DNA of 64,000 nt from Terrimicrobium sacchariphilum (GTDB taxonomy: Bacteria; Verrucomicrobiota; Verrucomicrobiia; Chthoniobacterales; Terrimicrobiaceae): NCBI RefSeq assembly GCF_001613545.1, contig NZ_BDCO01000001.1, positions 62,001 through 126,000 on the forward strand, given 5' to 3'. This document shows positions 19,077 to 27,520 of this stretch, in pieces (the first letter of the stretch is position 1; each line of letters opens with the position of its first letter). The notes under the pieces were generated by a model. It was not told where the DNA came from, searched no databases, and was given only the letters and a program-made list of their open reading frames with translations. The position numbers and the translations under genes were made by a program.

Positions 19077-20930
19077 ATGACCAGCCCTGAGGCCAGTCAA
19101 TCGTCCCCGTCGGGTTTTCGAATTCTTGTCGATCTTACCCTGCGCTACCCTCGTCTTCTGGGGGTCATCATCCTCCTGGGCTTCCTCTCCAGCCTGGTGA
19201 GCGCCCCCACGCCGTACCTCGGCAAGATCATCATCGATGACCTGATTTTCCGCGGCGGCGCGGCGGCAGGCCACGAGGTTTCCGGCTGGCTGGGCATCTC
19301 GCACACCGTCTGGATGATGACCGGCATCGTCGCCCTCGGCGTGTTCCTGAAAGTCGTCGGCAGCCTGCTGGGAGGTTGGCAATGTCATTACATCCTCCAG
19401 ATCACCCGCAACTCGCTCTACGACGTGCGCCTGAATACCGCGCTCCGCCTCATGGGCGCGCGGCAGGAGAAGCTCGAGCGGCTGGAGGCCGGGCGTATTG
19501 CCTCCCGCATCGGTTTCGATGTGAACCAGATGGATGGCGCCATCTTCAGCATCCTGCGGAATTTCCTCTCCAGCGTCTTCCTCGTCATCGTGGTCGTCGG
19601 GTTCATGGTCTTTATCAATCCGTGGCTGACCCTCGTCGTGCTGGCCACCATGCCGGTCACCGCGATCCTCAGCATGGTGTCGTACTCGAAGCTCCGGGAG
19701 TTCAGCCGCGAGGAGTCCGACCGCGTGGCCGATCTCACCGCGACCACGGCGGAAACCTTTGGCGCGCTCAAGGTCATTCGCGTCTTTGCCTCGGAGGGTT
19801 TTTTCCTCTCCCGCCTGCAAAAGCGCTGCGAGGCGCTGCGCTATGAGGGTCTTTACCACTGGACGCGCTTTCACGCCCTTAACCTCCTGCTCACCCTGCT
19901 CAGCAGCCTCGGCGGTGACATCTTCCTCCTCGTCGGCGGCATCCTCGCGATCAAGGGCGAGATCACCTTTGGCTCCTTCTTCGCCTTCTACGGCTACCAG
20001 GCCATGCTCTGGGGCCCCATCGGCACGCTCCTCAACGCCGGTCAGATCATGCAAACCGGCACCGCCAGCGCGGAAAAGGTGCGGACCATGGCCCTGCTGG
20101 AGCAGGAGCCTTACCTGAACAACGCCCGGCCCAAGCCCTCGCAGGCCTTCCAAGGCGAGATCATCGCGGAGAACCTCACCTTTGCCTACAATGCGGGCGA
20201 GCCCATCATTCGCGACCTGAGTTTCCGCATCGCCCCGGGCTCCATGGTCGCCCTCGTCGGCCAGTCCGGCTCCGGCAAGACCACGCTGGCCAATCTCCTC
20301 CTCGGCATGTACCTGCCAACCGGCGGCAAGCTCTACATCGACGGCACGGATATCCGCGACTGGGACCTTCAGGCGCTCCGCGCCCACATGGGCGTCGTCC
20401 TACAGGATGCCATGCTCTTCAACGACACGCTGCGCACGAATCTCTGCATGGGCCGCGAGCACCCCGATGAACGCATCTGGGCCGCCCTCGCTGGCGCGCA
20501 CCTCGATACCTTCGTGCGCGGATTGCCCAAGGGCCTCGACGAGCACGCGGGCATCGGCGGCACGCGACTCTCCGGCGGCCAGAAGCAGCGCATCGCCATC
20601 GCCCGCGTGTTTCTCAAGAACCCCAAGCTCCTCATCCTCGACGAAGCCACCAGCGCCCTCGACAGCGAGACGGAAAAGGCCATCCAGCGCTCCTTTGACG
20701 CCCTCATGGCGGGCCGCACCTCCGTCGTGATCGCGCACCGCCTTTCCACCATCTACCAGGCCGACCAGATCCTCGTCCTCCACCAGGGTCGCCTCGTCGA
20801 GAGCGGCACGCACGAGGAACTCGTCAGCCGCCCCGCAGGCCATTATCGCGAACTCTACGAAGCCCAGGTCGAGGGCATGATCCCCATGAGCGGCGCCACT
20901 CGCCGGTCCTGGACAGAGCCCCGCCACTAA
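19077..20930 (+). CDS. ABC transporter, fused membrane and ATPase domains (exporter type)
   Basis: A 617-residue half-transporter. The transmembrane domain covers about residues 20-320, with six predicted helices such as GVIILLGFLSSLVSA. The ATPase has Walker A GQSGSGKTTLANLLLG, signature LSGGQKQRIAIARVFL, Walker B LLILDEATSALD and H-loop IAHRLST. There is no N-terminal C39 peptidase, so it does not itself process a double-glycine leader. The HlyD-type adaptor gene starts six bases after its stop, indicating a type I secretion or export unit. ATG 19077 is preferred; a GTG at 19053 is an alternative. No cargo gene is visible nearby. Confidence 0.9.
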   Translation: MTSPEASQSSPSGFRILVDLTLRYPRLLGVIILLGFLSSLVSAPTPYLGKIIIDDLIFRGGAAAGHEVSGWLGISHTVWMMTGIVALGVFLKVVGSLLGGWQCHYILQITRNSLYDVRLNTALRLMGARQEKLERLEAGRIASRIGFDVNQMDGAIFSILRNFLSSVFLVIVVVGFMVFINPWLTLVVLATMPVTAILSMVSYSKLREFSREESDRVADLTATTAETFGALKVIRVFASEGFFLSRLQKRCEALRYEGLYHWTRFHALNLLLTLLSSLGGDIFLLVGGILAIKGEITFGSFFAFYGYQAMLWGPIGTLLNAGQIMQTGTASAEKVRTMALLEQEPYLNNARPKPSQAFQGEIIAENLTFAYNAGEPIIRDLSFRIAPGSMVALVGQSGSGKTTLANLLLGMYLPTGGKLYIDGTDIRDWDLQALRAHMGVVLQDAMLFNDTLRTNLCMGREHPDERIWAALAGAHLDTFVRGLPKGLDEHAGIGGTRLSGGQKQRIAIARVFLKNPKLLILDEATSALDSETEKAIQRSFDALMAGRTSVVIAHRLSTIYQADQILVLHQGRLVESGTHEELVSRPAGHYRELYEAQVEGMIPMSGATRRSWTEPRH

Positions 20931-20936
20931 CTCGCC

Positions 20937-22136
20937 ATGGTCGTCGACGAAATCACATCGAAGCGCTCCGACGTGCGAACGAAATCGCCGCTCTGCGATG
21001 ACGATTACCGCCTGCCGCTAGCGAAGCTTCCCAAGGCCATTCCGCCTCGCTGGATGTACACCAGCATGCTCTGGAGCATCGGCGTCACCGTCGTGCTCAC
21101 CGCCGCGACTCTCCTCAGCCCCATGGATGAGTATGTCACGGCTCCCGGCGAGGTGCGTCCGGCCGAGTACGCCTACGTCTTCAGCCGGGCCGAGGGCATC
21201 CTGGAGACCATCGACGTGAAGGACGGCGAAAAAGTCCGCCAGGGCCAGGTGCTCGCCCGTCTCGATGGCTGGGAAATCCGCAAGCGCATCCGGGAAATCG
21301 AGGCCGACATCGCCCAGACGGAAGCCGAGCTCGCCATGTCCGAGGCCGCCCAGCGCAAGGTCACCGCCGCGCCCGTCCCCGCCGAGTTTCTCTTCAGCGC
21401 CGTCGAGATGGAGCGCCAAAAGGAAATTCAGGGCCTCCAGCAGGATTACCTCCATCGCCTGAACGAACTCCAGAAAACGGGAGCCGCCTCCGGCACGGAA
21501 CTCCTCAACATCCGCCTCCAGCTCATCGCCTCGGAATCGATGCTCAAGCGCAGCCAGCAGGCCTACGATCTCTTCAAGGGCGACTACGGCGCGGCCTCGC
21601 AAACCGAAGCAGCCGAAAAAGTGCGCGTCACCGAGGCCCGGCTCGCCGGGTTGCGCTCCCGCCTGGAATCCGCCCAGAGCGACCTGAAGCGCCTGGAGAT
21701 CATCGCCCCCACCGACGGCAACATCCTCACGACCGCCCGCCGCTTCCCCGGGGAAAAAATCGCCGCAGGCACCGCCCTCTTCAAGATCAGCGACGACAAC
21801 GACAAGACCGAGCTGCGCCTCTACGCCACCGAGGACCGCGTGAACCTCATCCAGCCCGGCCAGCTCGTGCGCTTCCGCGCCAACAACAACCCCGACCGCC
21901 TCGCCCCCCTCGCCATCGCCCGCGTCACCGAGGTCGCCCGCGACCGCGACCTCGCCTCCGAGGAGGATGCCGCCGATACGAACAGGCTGAGCACCTATCG
22001 CGTGAAGGCGGCTATTGAAGAGGCACAATACCCTCTCGCCGTCGGCGCCACCGTCGAGGCCGAGATCGTCCTCGAGCGCCGCCCCTTCTGGCGCCTCCTC
22101 CTCATGAAGCCCCAGCCCACCGGCTCCAAGCTTTAA
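20937..22136 (+). CDS. HlyD-family periplasmic adaptor
   Basis: A 399-residue adaptor. A short cytoplasmic N-terminus precedes one membrane anchor (about residues 44-62, LWSIGVTVVLTAATLLS). Next comes the lipoyl half motif SRAEGILETIDVKDGEKVRQG, a long alpha-helical coiled coil (about 118-245) and the second lipoyl half IIAPTDGNILTTARRFPGEK. A beta-barrel end follows (LRLYATEDRVNLIQPGQLVRF). It works with the ABC protein immediately upstream. No TolC-like gene is adjacent. The next gene is separated by 316 bases and differs in character. Confidence 0.88.
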   Translation: MVVDEITSKRSDVRTKSPLCDDDYRLPLAKLPKAIPPRWMYTSMLWSIGVTVVLTAATLLSPMDEYVTAPGEVRPAEYAYVFSRAEGILETIDVKDGEKVRQGQVLARLDGWEIRKRIREIEADIAQTEAELAMSEAAQRKVTAAPVPAEFLFSAVEMERQKEIQGLQQDYLHRLNELQKTGAASGTELLNIRLQLIASESMLKRSQQAYDLFKGDYGAASQTEAAEKVRVTEARLAGLRSRLESAQSDLKRLEIIAPTDGNILTTARRFPGEKIAAGTALFKISDDNDKTELRLYATEDRVNLIQPGQLVRFRANNNPDRLAPLAIARVTEVARDRDLASEEDAADTNRLSTYRVKAAIEEAQYPLAVGATVEAEIVLERRPFWRLLLMKPQPTGSKL

Positions 22137-22452
22137 CGCAGATCAACTAAAGATGCGCCCCCTGCCCGGTGCCCACCCGGGGCCGACACGGTGACCCTAA
22201 CTCCAGAAATGGGCTCGTGAACGGATTTAGGACTTTGGGGATGCGTCCATATCCGGTCATCCTCAGGGGAGAATGACGATTTCGACATTTTCGCTCTCCC
22301 ATATCTCCAGACCTCCACTCATCGTCGCTACCGATCACGCATTCGGCCCAAGCAACTTAAATTTGACATTTGACTCCTGATCCCCACTTCGGTGAATACC
22401 TAAATACACGCAACGCCCCCGGAGAAATCGGACGCTTCACCTCCTAGCCACA
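22137..22452. other. Intergenic region at the edge of the accessory patch
   Basis: No gene is seen in these 316 bases. Base composition changes from GC-rich to mixed from about 22230 onward, which may mark the left boundary of acquired DNA. No tRNA fragment, IS end or clear repeat was found. Confidence 0.4.
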
Positions 22453-23397
22453 ATGCCTATTCGCAACCATCTTGATATAGTTGGCCATCGCAAGTTTGAT
22501 GTGGCAGAAGTGTTGTCCGGGATGGTCCCGATCAACAACATTCTGATCGATACGGGGAAACCTGATGACGAGTGGCTGAAGAAGTCGACAGAGTTGATCG
22601 CGGAGTGGCGGGCTATCTTTCGCTCAATTTACATCAAGTGGGCCCTCGCCCTGAACGGTTTGGACGTCGCTGTCGAAAAGTATTCTGCTCCGGCTTGGCA
22701 GGCCAAGAAACGATTCTTCGTTACCTCGCTTCGCACAGAGAGGTCCGGGCTGTCAAAAATTACAGAAATCGCAGATTGGAATGGAGGTGACGCAGCCGCT
22801 AACCATCAGTCCGTCATCCCCTACATCGCGGGTTGGGGAATCATCGACCTCGGTTCAGCGCTCGAAGAGTTCATCTTCGATCTCTACCGGATATTTCTTT
22901 GGCAACACACGGAGCATTTGACCCAAGGGGCTGAATTCAAAAATCTTCGCAGACTGCGTACGGATGCCATGAACAGCCCACAAGATTTGGCAAAGTGGGA
23001 AGAAGCGTTCGCCGAGCGTCTGGACAACTGGCAGCGGAACGCCGTCTATAAATCAAAACGCGAACTTTTCCTCGCCTACTGCAATCACGCAGGGCTGAAG
23101 ACCCCCTCGATCTACAAACACACAACGCTGGAAACCTGGGCTGACTGTCTCAACGGGGTCTGCATTCTTCGGAATTGCCTTATTCACCCGAACGCGAAGG
23201 TTCCGAAGGAGCTGGGTGACTTTTCCGCTTCGAAACTTAACATCGGTTATGATTTCAAGGAGGGCCATCCGCTCCAAGTGACTTTGCAGCATCTGCAATG
23301 CACGGAGTGTTTCCTCGACCAATTGCTGACAGGACTCAACTTCTCGTTTGTGGAGCGCACAGGCGTGAGACTGCCCGAAACCAAGAATACCCCATAA
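22453..23397 (+). CDS. HEPN-motif protein of unknown specificity
   Basis: A 314-residue, probably all-alpha protein. Its most telling feature is the R240-x4-H245 motif (LRNCLIHPNAKV) in a helix near the C-terminus. This is the Rx4-6H signature of HEPN domains, many of which are RNases in toxin-antitoxin or phage-defence systems. An acidic/hydrophobic helix IIDLGSALEEFIFDLYRIF around residues 130-148 looks like the other core HEPN helix. There is no signal peptide. It stands alone on this strand, facing the HTH-P63C gene. I recognise no further domain. An RNA-cleaving role is inference from the motif only. Confidence 0.6.
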   Translation: MPIRNHLDIVGHRKFDVAEVLSGMVPINNILIDTGKPDDEWLKKSTELIAEWRAIFRSIYIKWALALNGLDVAVEKYSAPAWQAKKRFFVTSLRTERSGLSKITEIADWNGGDAAANHQSVIPYIAGWGIIDLGSALEEFIFDLYRIFLWQHTEHLTQGAEFKNLRRLRTDAMNSPQDLAKWEEAFAERLDNWQRNAVYKSKRELFLAYCNHAGLKTPSIYKHTTLETWADCLNGVCILRNCLIHPNAKVPKELGDFSASKLNIGYDFKEGHPLQVTLQHLQCTECFLDQLLTGLNFSFVERTGVRLPETKNTP

Positions 23398-23710
23398 CAG
23401 GCGCCACGTTTAACCTATTGTAACCATTCAAACTAAATTACGCACGAGAGAAGGGGGCAGGCGCCTGAATGGCATTAAGATAACGCCTATTTGGGAGCGT
23501 TTTGCTCTGTCGGAGAGCGCCGCAGGTGTTGACTTGGCTGCTCCTGACCCATTCGTTTCAGTAAATTTACGGGCCAACCGAGAGTCTGACTGCCGAGGGT
23601 TGAGCCTGCTTCCAGCGGCTTTTTGAGCGTTTGGCCGGTTCAATTGCGCACTCGAAAAGGCTCATTATATTAATGCCATTCACTCCAGCCCCCCACATTT
23701 AAAACTGAAA
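23398..23710. other. Intergenic region between the convergent HEPN and P63C genes
   Basis: I see no believable gene in these 313 bases. The 8-base word CAGGCGCC occurs twice (23398-23405 and 23458-23465), which may be chance. No U-tract terminator is evident. Confidence 0.4.
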
Positions 23711-24835
23711 TCACTCAGACTCACCCGTCGATTTCGGCGGAAGATACATAGTGAGTTGAACGGGAATACGACCAAATTTCTCGGCCATACGGCGGCGCAG
23801 CTCGGACATTGTTTCACAGGCTGACGCCATGCCTACCACCATCCAAATATGTTCAATCAATTTCTTAAGACCGTATTGACTACTCATCCATTGATGATAA
23901 TTTTGACCAGCAATCGGCTTGGGGGCATGATCTTTAAGCCATTTTGCAACATCTTTATCTAGGTATCCGTAAATCAGTTCCATAACCAATTTGCCCCAGT
24001 ATTTCGGGCGATGGTGAAGCTGGCCGCTCCATTTGGTGAGCCTACCGAATTCCACCCACAATTGATCCGGGAAAGTCTTTTCCCATTTCCTCATTTCTTC
24101 CTCCAAGAAGATTTTCATTTTCAATTGGAGAGCATCAACAGGGCGGTCGTATTGGTAGCCGGTGGCTTCATCAACGAGAGCAACAATTCCCGTCTTCGCT
24201 GCGGCTCGGAGAAACGTGCTCGCCTTGACGGCGATCTCCATTTGGCGCGCGGTTAGCTTTGAGTCGCTTGCGCCAGAGGCAAAATTCTGCAGCGCACTTG
24301 AATAGGCTCCGCAGAGATCCATAAACTTCTCAACATCCAAGCCCAGAGCATGTTGCGCAATCCCAGATGCCCCGGTATCGAACTGAAAAAGGGCCGAAAC
24401 CTTACCATTTTCTGCAGGAATCAAATCTTTCGGCAGATATGGCTGCAGCACCTTTACTTTTAGGTACTCCGCAAGCTGTCCACCATCGGTTCCTATCAGA
24501 CTGACGACAATTCCTTTCAGGCTGAAGACGCGAATTCCGTTCTCCAGAACATAGCAAGGAATTTCAACCTCCCCGATTTTAAGAGAACCCCAGTGCGTAG
24601 CTTTTGGAATATAAACCTGATCAACGATAACTTCAGGGGTAGCAATGAAGTCAGCAGGTGAAAGATCAATCCCCTTCTGCTCGGCAAGTTCCAGTAGCTT
24701 GGGTTGCCATTTCGCCGGGATATGCCCTTTTGACGCCCAATATTGAACTGTTGTTTGTCCCTTTCCGATGAGGGTCGCCAAAGCGGATTGCCCGCCAAAC
24801 TTTTCAATGATCCTTCCCGCTATGCCGTGTCGCAT
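23711..24835 (-). CDS. HTH-P63C domain protein
   Basis: A 374-residue protein. Residues 1-60 look like a small Cro/YdaS-type helix-turn-helix (GGQSALATLIGKGQTTVQYW then HIPAKWQPKLLELAEQKGI). The central and C-terminal part carries the P63C signature, GIVALVDEATGYQYDRP followed by KMKIFLEEEMRKWEKTFPDQ. P63C domains are known mainly from phage and mobile-element proteins of unknown function. A promoter-like sequence and an inverted repeat lie directly upstream, suggesting an independent, self-regulated unit. The gene is visibly richer in A+T than the flanking housekeeping genes, a sign of transfer. The start ATG 24835 is well placed relative to the HTH. Confidence 0.75.
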   Translation of the reverse strand: MRHGIAGRIIEKFGGQSALATLIGKGQTTVQYWASKGHIPAKWQPKLLELAEQKGIDLSPADFIATPEVIVDQVYIPKATHWGSLKIGEVEIPCYVLENGIRVFSLKGIVVSLIGTDGGQLAEYLKVKVLQPYLPKDLIPAENGKVSALFQFDTGASGIAQHALGLDVEKFMDLCGAYSSALQNFASGASDSKLTARQMEIAVKASTFLRAAAKTGIVALVDEATGYQYDRPVDALQLKMKIFLEEEMRKWEKTFPDQLWVEFGRLTKWSGQLHHRPKYWGKLVMELIYGYLDKDVAKWLKDHAPKPIAGQNYHQWMSSQYGLKKLIEHIWMVVGMASACETMSELRRRMAEKFGRIPVQLTMYLPPKSTGESE

Positions 24836-24841
24836 AAAGGC

Positions 24842-24884
24842 AAAGTATCAGTAAACCAAAAAACAGTCAATCAGTTTTTCTGAT
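24842..24884 (-). promoter_or_regulatory. Sigma70-like promoter and inverted repeat upstream of the HTH-P63C gene
   Basis: On the minus strand TTGACT (24870-24865) and TACTTT (24847-24842) are 17 bases apart, a good -35/-10 layout, with the ATG 7 bases beyond the -10. The inverted repeat ATCAG-TTTTT-CTGAT (24870-24884) abuts the -35 box, where a repressor could act. The encoded HTH domain makes autoregulation plausible. The leader would be nearly absent. Confidence 0.5.
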
Positions 24885-24993
24885 GAGGCAACCTTTACAG
24901 CTTTGATAGCATCGAATTTCATTTACGAATTTCCACTCTGCCTGTTCGCCCTTTTTACACCCGGCCCGGAGTGTCCACTTGCGCCACCATCTC

Positions 24994-26331
24994 TCACCCC
25001 CCTCTACCCCCCTTTGCGGCGTCGTAGGCTGCAAGCACCTGGCGGAAGACAGGGCTGAAGTCCTGCGGGGTCCGGGCGAGCCACTCGCGTACCTGGGGCA
25101 TCGCGAAAAACGCGCCGGTTTCCAGTTCCATGCGGGGGAGGACAAACGGGCCGTCGTGGGTGCCGGAGTACAGCTCGATGAACTCAAAGCCGGTCTCCGC
25201 CGAGCACCCGAGGCGACCGAATTTCTCCAGCGGAATCCGAATTCCCAATTCCTCCAGAATTTCACGTTCCGCCGCTCCGTCGTAGGTTTCCCCGGCATCG
25301 ACATGTCCCGCTGCGCTGGAGTCCCAGACGCCAGGATTCTTGTCCTTCCAGATCGAGCGCTTTTGCAGGAAGAGCTCCCCGGCCTGGTTGAAAATCAGCA
25401 TGTGAACAGCCCGATGGCGGAAGTTATTCACATGGACAGTATTCCGCGTCTCCGAGCCGATGACGCGATCAGATTCGTCCACGATGTCAAACATTTCGTC
25501 ACCGCTTTGCGCCCTGGCCGGAGCCACCATCTGCGTGAGCTTTTCCCACTGTTGTAATGACAACTCCTCCGCCCGCACGGTCTCCGGGAGACCCAGCGCA
25601 GCGCAGGCGTCGGGCCACAATTCCCGGTACTCCGGCAGGAGCTTGCGCAGCTGTTTGCGGCGTTCGGAAAATCCCTTGCGCACGAGGTACTCAAAGAGCG
25701 CTTCATCGCACGCGGGCACCTCGTCGGCGCTCTTCTTTTCGAGGATGACGACAGCCGACGCGACCTTGGGCTGCGGGAAGAAAACGGTGTGCGGAATTTT
25801 CTTCGCGTAGCTCACCTTCCACCTCCGCGCGGTGCACACGCTCATCGCGCCAAAATCCTTCGTGCCCGGAGTCGCCGCGAGCCTCGCCGCCACCTCGTGC
25901 TGGAGCATCAGAACAAGTATTGATGCGGGTGAGAGGGCGGATGCGTATTTCGCGATCAGTGGGGTTGACACGTAATACGGCAGGTTTCCGACGATCTTCA
26001 CCGGCCCCTTTCCGTAGAGCTTGCGCAGGTCAAAATCCAGCGCGTCCATGTGGAACAGTTCTACGGGCTGACCCGCGAATTTTTTGCTCAGCCACTCCAC
26101 CATGAGACCATCCTTCTCGATGAGCGTGACAGTCACCCCCGGCTGCACCAGACACTCGCTGAGCGACCCCAGCCCCGGCCCGACTTCCACGACGTGCTCA
26201 CCCTCACGCAACGACAGTTGCGCAGCGATCCAGCGGGCGATGTTTTGATCGTGTAAAAAGTTCTGCCCCAGGCTCTGGCGAGGCCGGGTTTCCAATTCGG
26301 CCAGAGCATGCTGGATTTCCGTGAGCGTCAT
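24994..26331 (-). CDS. rsmA: 16S rRNA dimethyladenosine transferase RsmA fused to a Nudix hydrolase
   Basis: A 445-residue two-domain protein. Residues 1-270 are a complete RsmA/KsgA: LGQNFLHD at 21-28, the SAM-binding VVEVGPGLGSLS at 47-58, catalytic NLPYY at 116-120, and FSERRKQLRKLL at 221-232. It would dimethylate the two adjacent adenosines near the 3' end of 16S rRNA. Residues 280-445 form a Nudix domain resembling YfcD/IPP-isomerase types (FDIVDESDRVIG). Its full Nudix box runs from G342 to I364 (G-x5-E-x7-RE-x2-EE-x-G-I). KsgA is normally about 270 residues, so the fusion is the oddity. ATG 26331 (MTLTEIQ) fits the family better than an upstream GTG. Confidence 0.9.
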   Translation of the reverse strand: MTLTEIQHALAELETRPRQSLGQNFLHDQNIARWIAAQLSLREGEHVVEVGPGLGSLSECLVQPGVTVTLIEKDGLMVEWLSKKFAGQPVELFHMDALDFDLRKLYGKGPVKIVGNLPYYVSTPLIAKYASALSPASILVLMLQHEVAARLAATPGTKDFGAMSVCTARRWKVSYAKKIPHTVFFPQPKVASAVVILEKKSADEVPACDEALFEYLVRKGFSERRKQLRKLLPEYRELWPDACAALGLPETVRAEELSLQQWEKLTQMVAPARAQSGDEMFDIVDESDRVIGSETRNTVHVNNFRHRAVHMLIFNQAGELFLQKRSIWKDKNPGVWDSSAAGHVDAGETYDGAAEREILEELGIRIPLEKFGRLGCSAETGFEFIELYSGTHDGPFVLPRMELETGAFFAMPQVREWLARTPQDFSPVFRQVLAAYDAAKGGRGG

Positions 26332-26512
26332 GCACTTGGGATACAGGAAAGAACTCCGTTTCACAAACACGAGGTGAGGGCTTGCGGAGGAAAGTGGGGA
26401 TTTTTTCGCAAGTTATTCACAATCGGCTGTCAACTGGGAAAATCGCCTTGCGGCAATTCCCTCGGATACCGCTTGAGACAGGAGCCAACATCAGTCAGGG
26501 TACGGCCTTTCC

Positions 26513-27520
26513 ATGAAAAAGTCGGGTTGTGTCATTCTCGCGCTCTTCTTCCTGGTTTGCATCAGCATGTTTGCGAACCTGCTCCTCTTCTTCGCTCTCA
26601 TCGGGAGCTTCAAGGGCTCGACCAGCGTGGCTGGCGTGAAGGTGCTCCGACCTCGGGAGTTTGAGGAGGTCGTGGAAAAGGAGGGCACCACGTCGTCCTC
26701 CCGCATCGCGGTCATCCCGCTGGAGGGAGTCATCGCCCACGGTGCGCCCGGCCCGCTCGGCGAGGACATGGTGAATGATTTCAAGCGCGCCCTGGAACAA
26801 GCCCGCGACGACGACCGGGTGAAAGCCGTCATCATCTCCGTCGACAGCCCTGGCGGCGAGGTCACCGCCTCGGATGTGCTCTACAACAGCCTGAAGGAAT
26901 TCAGCCGCCACAAGCCCTCCATCATCTACTTCAACTCCATCGGAGCCTCCGGCGCGTACTACACCGCCTGCGGCGCCTCCTGGATCATGTGCAACGACAC
27001 GACCTTCACCGGGTCGATCGGCGTCATCATTTCCACTCTGAACTACCGGGAGCTCTTTGGAAAAATCGGCCTGGAGTCGGTGGTCTTCAAGAGCGGAAAG
27101 TTCAAGGACATGCTCAATGGCGCCCGTGAGATGAGCCCCGAGGAGCGCGCCTATGTCGAGGGTCTCGTGATGCAAAGCTACGGCCGCTTCGTCGGCATCG
27201 TCGCCAAGGCCCGCAAGATCGATGAGAATACTCTCCGCAACGGCGTGGCCGATGGCCGCATCCTCAGCGGAGTCGACGCATTCGACGCCAAGCTGGTCGA
27301 TCAACTCGGCTACATCGAGGATGCCTACGCCAAGGCCCGCGAACTCGGCAAGGCCCCCGGCGCGCAAATCGTGCGCTACAAGCGCGTGGTGACTTTTGCC
27401 AGCCTCTTCCGCGCCTTCAGCGAGACCAAGACGCCGGCCATCAAGGTGGACGTCTTCGAAAACCTTCCCAAGCTCCAGCCCGGCCGGGTGTACCTGATGC
27501 CCGCCATCTTCGCGCCTTAA
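26513..27520 (+). CDS. sppA: Signal peptide peptidase SppA (S49 family, short form)
   Basis: A 335-residue membrane-anchored serine protease that degrades cleaved signal peptides. The N-terminal anchor is about residues 5-30. The catalytic nucleophile is Ser146 in SIGASGAYY and the general base is probably Lys198 in KSGKFKDM, close to the spacing in Bacillus SppA. This is the short single-domain form rather than the duplicated E. coli type. It begins a plus-strand run with a CPBP protease (3 bases on), thiL, corA and a glycosyltransferase. Confidence 0.93.
   Translation: MKKSGCVILALFFLVCISMFANLLLFFALIGSFKGSTSVAGVKVLRPREFEEVVEKEGTTSSSRIAVIPLEGVIAHGAPGPLGEDMVNDFKRALEQARDDDRVKAVIISVDSPGGEVTASDVLYNSLKEFSRHKPSIIYFNSIGASGAYYTACGASWIMCNDTTFTGSIGVIISTLNYRELFGKIGLESVVFKSGKFKDMLNGAREMSPEERAYVEGLVMQSYGRFVGIVAKARKIDENTLRNGVADGRILSGVDAFDAKLVDQLGYIEDAYAKARELGKAPGAQIVRYKRVVTFASLFRAFSETKTPAIKVDVFENLPKLQPGRVYLMPAIFAP

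Follow-up and report, generated by a model that had tools for sequence, protein, structure and literature searches.

Two convergent genes that lie side by side between ordinary chromosomal neighbours can be parts of one defence system or unrelated passengers at the same site, and this is the question raised by positions 22137-24993 of a 64,000-nucleotide stretch of the Terrimicrobium sacchariphilum genome (contig NZ_BDCO01000001.1), hereafter called the window. The segment holds one gene for a protein with a HEPN-type motif and one gene for a protein that joins a helix-turn-helix (HTH) to a P63C domain. Our analysis favours, with somewhat better than even confidence, a variable hotspot in which the two genes are independent cargo, namely a stand-alone HEPN ribonuclease (RNase) and a phage-derived Cro-P63C DNA-binding protein. 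Taken as a whole this is a fairly ordinary case of a defence hotspot, and a more unusual lead lies in the P63C family as cargo of the slot behind phage repressors. The features of the two genes are as follows.

22453..23397, plus strand: gene for the HEPN-type protein of 314 amino acids, a probable RNase effector (open reading frame, family of relatives, model with mean predicted local distance difference test score (pLDDT) of 86.8)
23170..23187, plus strand: R240-N-C-L-I-H245, the Rx4H motif (R240 and H245 invariant in 14/14 alignment rows)
23711..24835, minus strand: gene for the Cro-like HTH and P63C protein of 374 amino acids, a phage-type DNA-binding regulator (Pfam P63C, PHROG 2384, carph-isopro)
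23858..24112, minus strand: P63C domain, residues 242-326 (PF10546, E 3e-22)
24635..24829, minus strand: N-terminal HTH, residues 3-67 (NCBIfam carph-isopro domain at 8-59, E 4e-20; Cro fold in the model)

The two families were not found together elsewhere. With the window's own loci set aside, none of the 15 places that hold the HEPN-type family also holds the P63C family, and no P63C locus was found to hold a HEPN-type relative. Within the phylum, 387 genomes were searched for each family; two carry the HEPN-type family and five the P63C family, with only the window's genome in common. HEPN and P63C as a conserved two-gene system were rejected on these counts. A preliminary description of the segment, made from the sequence alone, had offered two options, a joint defence or toxin-type unit and two unrelated cargo genes. 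The missing co-occurrence, which that description had itself named as refuting the pair, the differing guanine-cytosine (GC) content at third codon positions (0.63 in the HEPN-type gene, 0.50 in the P63C gene) and an element resembling a miniature inverted-repeat transposable element (MITE) that lies between the genes speak against the former and support the latter. A single defence or toxin-antitoxin unit, in which the Cro-P63C protein would repress a HEPN toxin or sense phage, is in our view very improbable. The genes are adjacent, 313 bp apart and both foreign by composition, and HEPN proteins are often under the control of a partner (sections 10 and 12 of PMC3710099), but the convergent orientation means that no promoter can be shared, and neither the relatives of the HEPN-type gene nor the searched genomes of the phylum repeat the pairing. 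The HEPN/MNT type II toxin-antitoxin arrangement (HepT/MntA) was rejected as well, since the neighbour is an HTH-P63C protein on the other strand and no recurrent partner was found at the loci of the relatives.

The site itself was found to vary among close relatives. We compared the slot in the window genome (G000) with two genomes of the same genus, G042 and G067. The segment comprises exactly the bases between both flanking stop codons, where the HlyD-family gene ends at 22136 and the stop of the rsmA-NUDIX gene lies at 24994, and its borders are the following.

20937..22136, plus strand: gene for a membrane-fusion protein of the HlyD family, bordering the slot on the left (Pfam HlyD_3, E 2.6e-10; HlyD_D23, E 2e-10)
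22137..22193, no strand: left border DNA, 57 bp (blastn: present in G042 next to different cargo, absent from G067)
24969..24993, no strand: right border DNA, 25 bp (blastn: common to the window genome and G042)
24994..26370, minus strand: rsmA (KsgA) fused to NUDIX, bordering the slot on the right (Pfam RrnaAD, E 1.6e-49; NUDIX, E 5e-16)

Both flanking genes are closely shared within the genus, with HlyD-family orthologues that are 99% and 96% identical and rsmA-NUDIX orthologues that are 97% and 96% identical in the two other genomes; HlyD matches in the more distant family members G016 and G033 reach only 26-27%. The slot is empty in G067, where the flanking genes adjoin each other directly, with overlapping stop codons. 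In G042 two other genes occupy it (L033 2892-5373): one encodes a restriction endonuclease of the BsuBI/PstI type (PF06616, E 6e-63; PF17728, E 3e-41), the other a methylase of the Eco57I type (E 1.6e-10). The hlyD/rsmA-NUDIX slot is a small variable hotspot, probably a defence hotspot, and it displays the turnover of cargo between close relatives. It resembles other defence hotspots in which cargo is swapped between core genes, as it is empty, filled with restriction-modification (R-M) genes or filled with HEPN-type and P63C genes in the three genomes, but the likeness covers only these three genomes.

The composition of the segment also sets it apart. The GC content is 0.498 for 22196-24961 and 0.608 for the remaining window, and none of 613 windows of the same length, stepped by 100, was found to be equally low. 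At third codon positions the flanking genes have a GC content of 0.87 and 0.75, well above both cargo genes. The accessory patch of deviating composition that had been proposed is thus upheld by the GC contrast together with the presence and absence of the insert at exactly this site in genomes of the same genus.

The HEPN-type protein carries the Rx4H motif. R240 and H245 are kept in 14/14 aligned members, whose identity to the window protein is 28-48%, and E138 and about twenty further residues are likewise invariant. The window protein and the 14 relatives whose motif was read all show the pattern R-[NH]-x3-H, and with N or H after the arginine it fits the published HEPN signature, Rx4-6H with a polar residue following R (section 6 of PMC3710099). 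Both convergent reading frames and the codons of R240 and H245 were located as described beforehand, and the HEPN signature read into these two residues gains from their invariance across the family.

Relatives of this protein occur on two plasmids, in 12 genomes (alphaproteobacteria, a metagenome-assembled genome of Helicobacteraceae, two Bacteroidota and a planctomycete) and in one genome of the same phylum (G502). The nearest is the Helicobacteraceae protein with 47% identity, and the relative from the same phylum reaches 45%. No relative was found among 50,697 phage records or in two pattern-limited scans of viral contigs, and the HEPN-type gene is therefore not a typical phage gene. The Pseudoponticoccus relative sits among open reading frames that were interpreted as structural genes of a phage. 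The genes of two relatives seem to be inactivated, that of L009 (2388-3356) by an in-frame stop and that of L019 (7989-8923) by a split into two open reading frames; either a costly gene has possibly been lost more than once, or the sequences contain errors.

The neighbourhoods of these relatives often include defence or mobility genes of differing kinds. For the Ensifer relative the upstream neighbour is a CBASS operon and the downstream one an integrase; the Methylobacterium relative has DarT/DarG upstream, again with an integrase downstream. In Pontibacter (L010 6584-8939) the gene lies 4 bp past hsdS of a type I R-M operon, and in Qipengyuania and Erythrobacter longus (two loci) it is divergent from a pair made of a C5 methylase and an REase II. 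The Hongsoonwoonella relative adjoins the PADLOC candidate PDC-S32 and an integrase-like open reading frame. Neighbours were assigned to CBASS, DarTG and R-M from the annotation of the records, individual scans and the reading of open reading frames. The tally of neighbours covers 92 of the 131 listed open reading frames, which were called mechanically, with short neighbourhoods at L009, L017 and L052; six of the 92 scanned are integrases. When the neighbours at all loci were compared, only integrases and the R-M pair, the latter confined to the two sister loci, turned up at more than one locus, and the HEPN-type gene therefore has no constant partner. The Pontibacter arrangement resembles that of other HEPN genes in R-M operons.

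The AlphaFold2 model of the HEPN-type protein (mean pLDDT 86.8, predicted template modelling score (pTM) 0.80) is helical with one beta hairpin (residues 87-110). R240 lies near the end of the helix 226-244 with H245 just after it, and the last helix spans residues 278-302. The top VIA match is the HepT HEPN toxin 7ae6 (Z 8.0, root-mean-square deviation (rmsd) 5.0, 139/143 residues aligned), followed by unrelated bundles that score Z 7.3 and below. The HEPN fold, which is all-alpha with two hairpins and has the motif close to the third helix, is supported by this model, not proved. A fold other than HEPN had been named beforehand as what would overturn the assignment; the helical model with HepT as its first match does not point to one, although Z 8.0 is no proof.

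The protein resembles known HEPN RNases (HepT, RiboL-PSP-HEPN, Abi-type effectors) in its Rx4H motif with a polar residue after R, in a conserved acidic residue (E138) of an earlier helix, in its all-helical model and in its neighbourhoods of R-M and other defence genes. It differs from them by extra N-terminal helices, the beta hairpin and a long insert before the motif helix, and it has neither a match to a family model above the cut-off nor an MNT or other antitoxin partner. A further likeness, compared by description only, is to Tha of Staphylococcus prophages, which PMC11087260 presents as a HEPN-domain anti-phage system and thus as another HEPN anti-phage protein on mobile elements. As judged from sequence comparison, the family appears to be an uncharacterised one, with no entry in the four family libraries searched. 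Among the candidates tried, membership in RiboL-PSP-HEPN (PF18735) was rejected, being below the Pfam cut-off and weak in hhalign, and so was membership in any named HEPN family, as nothing rose above chance in Pfam, NCBIfam, PHROGs, PADLOC or the PDB sequences. PF05168 was set apart because its member sequences are short HEPN domains of a different type.

The HEPN-type gene most likely encodes a single-gene abortive-infection RNase. The protein would be a stand-alone endoribonuclease of an undescribed family, present as a homodimer that stays silent in healthy cells. A phage-related trigger, perhaps sensed by the protein's own N-terminal half, would release the dimer, which might then cut host or phage RNA by means of R240 and H245. 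Since its members repeatedly adjoin genes of CBASS, DarTG or R-M systems and seem to work on their own, the family makes a testable candidate for single-gene defence with two predicted catalytic residues. It would not be expected to need the P63C protein, nor the P63C protein to need it.

The second gene could be assigned to named families. Its product scores 79.4 bits against PF10546, where the Pfam cut-off is 26.1, and matches PHROG 2384 with E 2.5e-70. In its model (pLDDT 85.1, pTM 0.55) residues 3-67 adopt a Cro fold, with Xfaso 1 Cro (3bd1) as the match (Z 7.4, 62 aligned, 2.6 Å). Together with the carph-isopro domain and the phage-borne relatives, these results confirm the combination of an HTH with a phage-associated P63C domain that had been read from the sequence. 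Residues 81-358 align weakly along DdrC of Deinococcus, with 8u0g at Z 6.2 (181 aligned) and 7qvb at Z 6.0 (178 aligned), at an rmsd of 12-14 Å (about 14 Å for 8u0g). DdrC is described in PMC5436757 as a DNA-binding and DNA-condensing DNA-damage protein. In 8u0g and 7qvb it consists of a winged-helix and a helical dimer domain; the stretch runs along the DdrC chain, but by the rmsd the domains are arranged otherwise, and sequence similarity is lacking. The structural match may be due to chance. Foldseek gave no PDB match for the model at E <= 0.001, and no sequence similarity to a DdrC chain was found at E <= 10.

Relatives of the P63C protein are common in phages. They were found in 45 of 50,697 phage records and 14 of 72,556 plasmid records. 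Viral contigs contain at least 554 further related stretches, of which 80 were kept. The closest relative found, on a viral contig (L067 4001-5134), is 66% identical over the full length with the HTH included, and a CI-like repressor lies 1.26 kb upstream of it. The lineage of L067 is likely the source of the window gene, as far as the alignment can indicate. The L067 relative shares the carph-isopro HTH by its full-length alignment with the window protein, and this HTH was absent from the nine P63C relatives scanned, of which L020 was scanned without its first 43 residues.

The position of the gene in phage genomes was found to be recurrent. In five of nine annotated records (Midgardsormr38, an E. 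coli plasmid with phage genes, SI8, SPN9CC and Kuwabara) the P63C gene follows directly after the prophage repressor. In the other four it lies between the regulators and the integrase of a satellite phage, near the integrase of a Pseudomonas phage, beside the late genes of a Paracoccus phage and beside the LlaMI endonuclease on a small plasmid. We also examined 44 viral loci, which are those with more than 2 kb on both sides among 57 non-redundant viral groups. A repressor-like gene lies upstream on the same strand within 2 kb in 15 of them and downstream in none, by a test with eight queries and low sensitivity in which two of the 15 positive loci had supplied queries. No repressor gene was found beside the window copy.

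In phage BTP1 the slot downstream of the repressor holds bstA, an abortive-infection gene (PMC8585504). In the P22-like phages SPN9CC and SI8 this position behind cI is taken by relatives of the P63C gene, whose products are probably, like BstA, proteins of a DNA-binding type; the window copy differs in standing alone, with its own HTH and no repressor. Homology between P63C proteins and BstA was rejected, with blastp giving E 0.16 at best over 77 residues and hhalign a probability of 1% (E 0.054) over 22 columns. In P22-like phages the slot behind cI was seen to alternate between P63C genes and bstA (L060 3671-4900, L056 3980-4852, L066 28112-29035).

We regard the P63C protein as a DNA-binding protein derived from phages. 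Its Cro-type HTH may control its own expression, replacing the neighbouring repressor on which the phage relatives rely, and its body would bind DNA and thereby hinder competing phages or regulate lysogeny. The family is common in temperate phages and nearly absent from the literature searched for 'P63C domain', and its position behind the repressor leads to the hypothesis that it protects the lysogen.

Several observations weigh against these readings. The second HEPN motif, Ex3[KR], is absent as such from the window protein, where residue 142, four past the invariant E138, is F rather than K or R; the conserved acidic residue itself is present. The window protein has no match in Pfam, PHROG or PADLOC, and its best values in NCBIfam (E 0.22) and among PDB sequences (E 0.74) are at chance level. 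HEPN_RiboL-PSP (PF18735) was matched by only one of the 14 members (E 0.13) and the window protein by no Pfam family at all, while hhalign against two RiboL-PSP-HEPN members gave E 0.41 and 0.19 with probabilities under 1%; in the second of these comparisons the RNCLIH and RNLLVH motifs line up. A Foldseek search with the HEPN-type model gave nothing from the PDB at E <= 0.001. A Z of 8 may reflect a common arrangement of helical bundles, values under about 13 being common according to the warning of the tool. The counts of defence neighbours have no matched control, and near several relatives no defence gene was seen. The three genomes of the genus do not order the older and newer states of the slot. 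As for autoregulation, the P63C gene had been credited with a promoter of its own, which the scan of the upstream region does not bear out: it gave no promoter-like site, with one site in the region against a mean of 2.5 in shuffles and a best site of 8/12 bases, and the operator-like palindrome at the gene is at chance level (p 0.45).

Two further explanations compete with that of two independent cargo genes. The HEPN-like protein might be catalytically dead, or no HEPN protein at all, and serve neighbouring R-M and CBASS systems as a helical accessory factor that binds RNA or protein. The lack of a named family would suit such a role, and so would a structural match too weak to be informative for helical bundles and the place of the gene in Pontibacter, 4 bp after hsdS, and in two Erythrobacteraceae, where it diverges from an R-M pair. 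It is nevertheless unlikely, as the R and H of the motif are invariant at 28-48% identity, which is expected of an active site, and no single R-M system recurs beyond the two sister loci.

Less likely again is that the segment is a decayed mobile element, such as a prophage or integron-like remnant, whose genes have no present function. The phage-borne P63C family, the MITE-like element in the middle of the segment and the two HEPN-type relatives that look broken (L009 and L019) would agree with decay, but both reading frames of the window are intact and full-length relative to their homologues, no integrase, clear att-like repeat or further phage gene was found within the segment, and intact R-M genes fill the slot in the sister genome.

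A broader proposal, which we put forward tentatively and consider doubtful, goes beyond independent cargo. The P63C proteins (PHROG 2384) might form a large class, so far unrecognised, of DNA-binding defence proteins that are carried by prophages in the bstA/rexAB slot behind the repressor and have a DdrC-like body. The window form would then be a chromosomally domesticated member with its own Cro-type operator-binding head, which no longer needs the repressor promoter, and the neighbouring HEPN gene would represent a new family of stand-alone anti-phage RNases.

As for the surroundings, an Rfam scan of 20000-27000 gave no match. The right-hand flanking gene combines the rsmA (KsgA) methyltransferase and a NUDIX domain in one frame, and near full-length orthologues of it were observed in G016, G033, G042 and G067.

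The element between the two cargo genes has the following extent.

23455..23700, no strand: MITE-like element of about 220-245 bp with 18-nucleotide terminal inverted repeats at 23466-23483 and 23665-23682 (inverted repeat 94%)

A second copy, at 71%, is present in the window's own genome. In a search of 39 genomes, copies or fragments were found in three genomes of the genus (the window's own, G042 and G067) and in none of the 36 others. The insert of G042 also holds a piece of it (44 bp at 93%), whereas the window segment holds the full element. Fragments of the element were observed at contig ends of G042 as well, which suggests that this genus has a multicopy insertion element that is longer and shares these ends.

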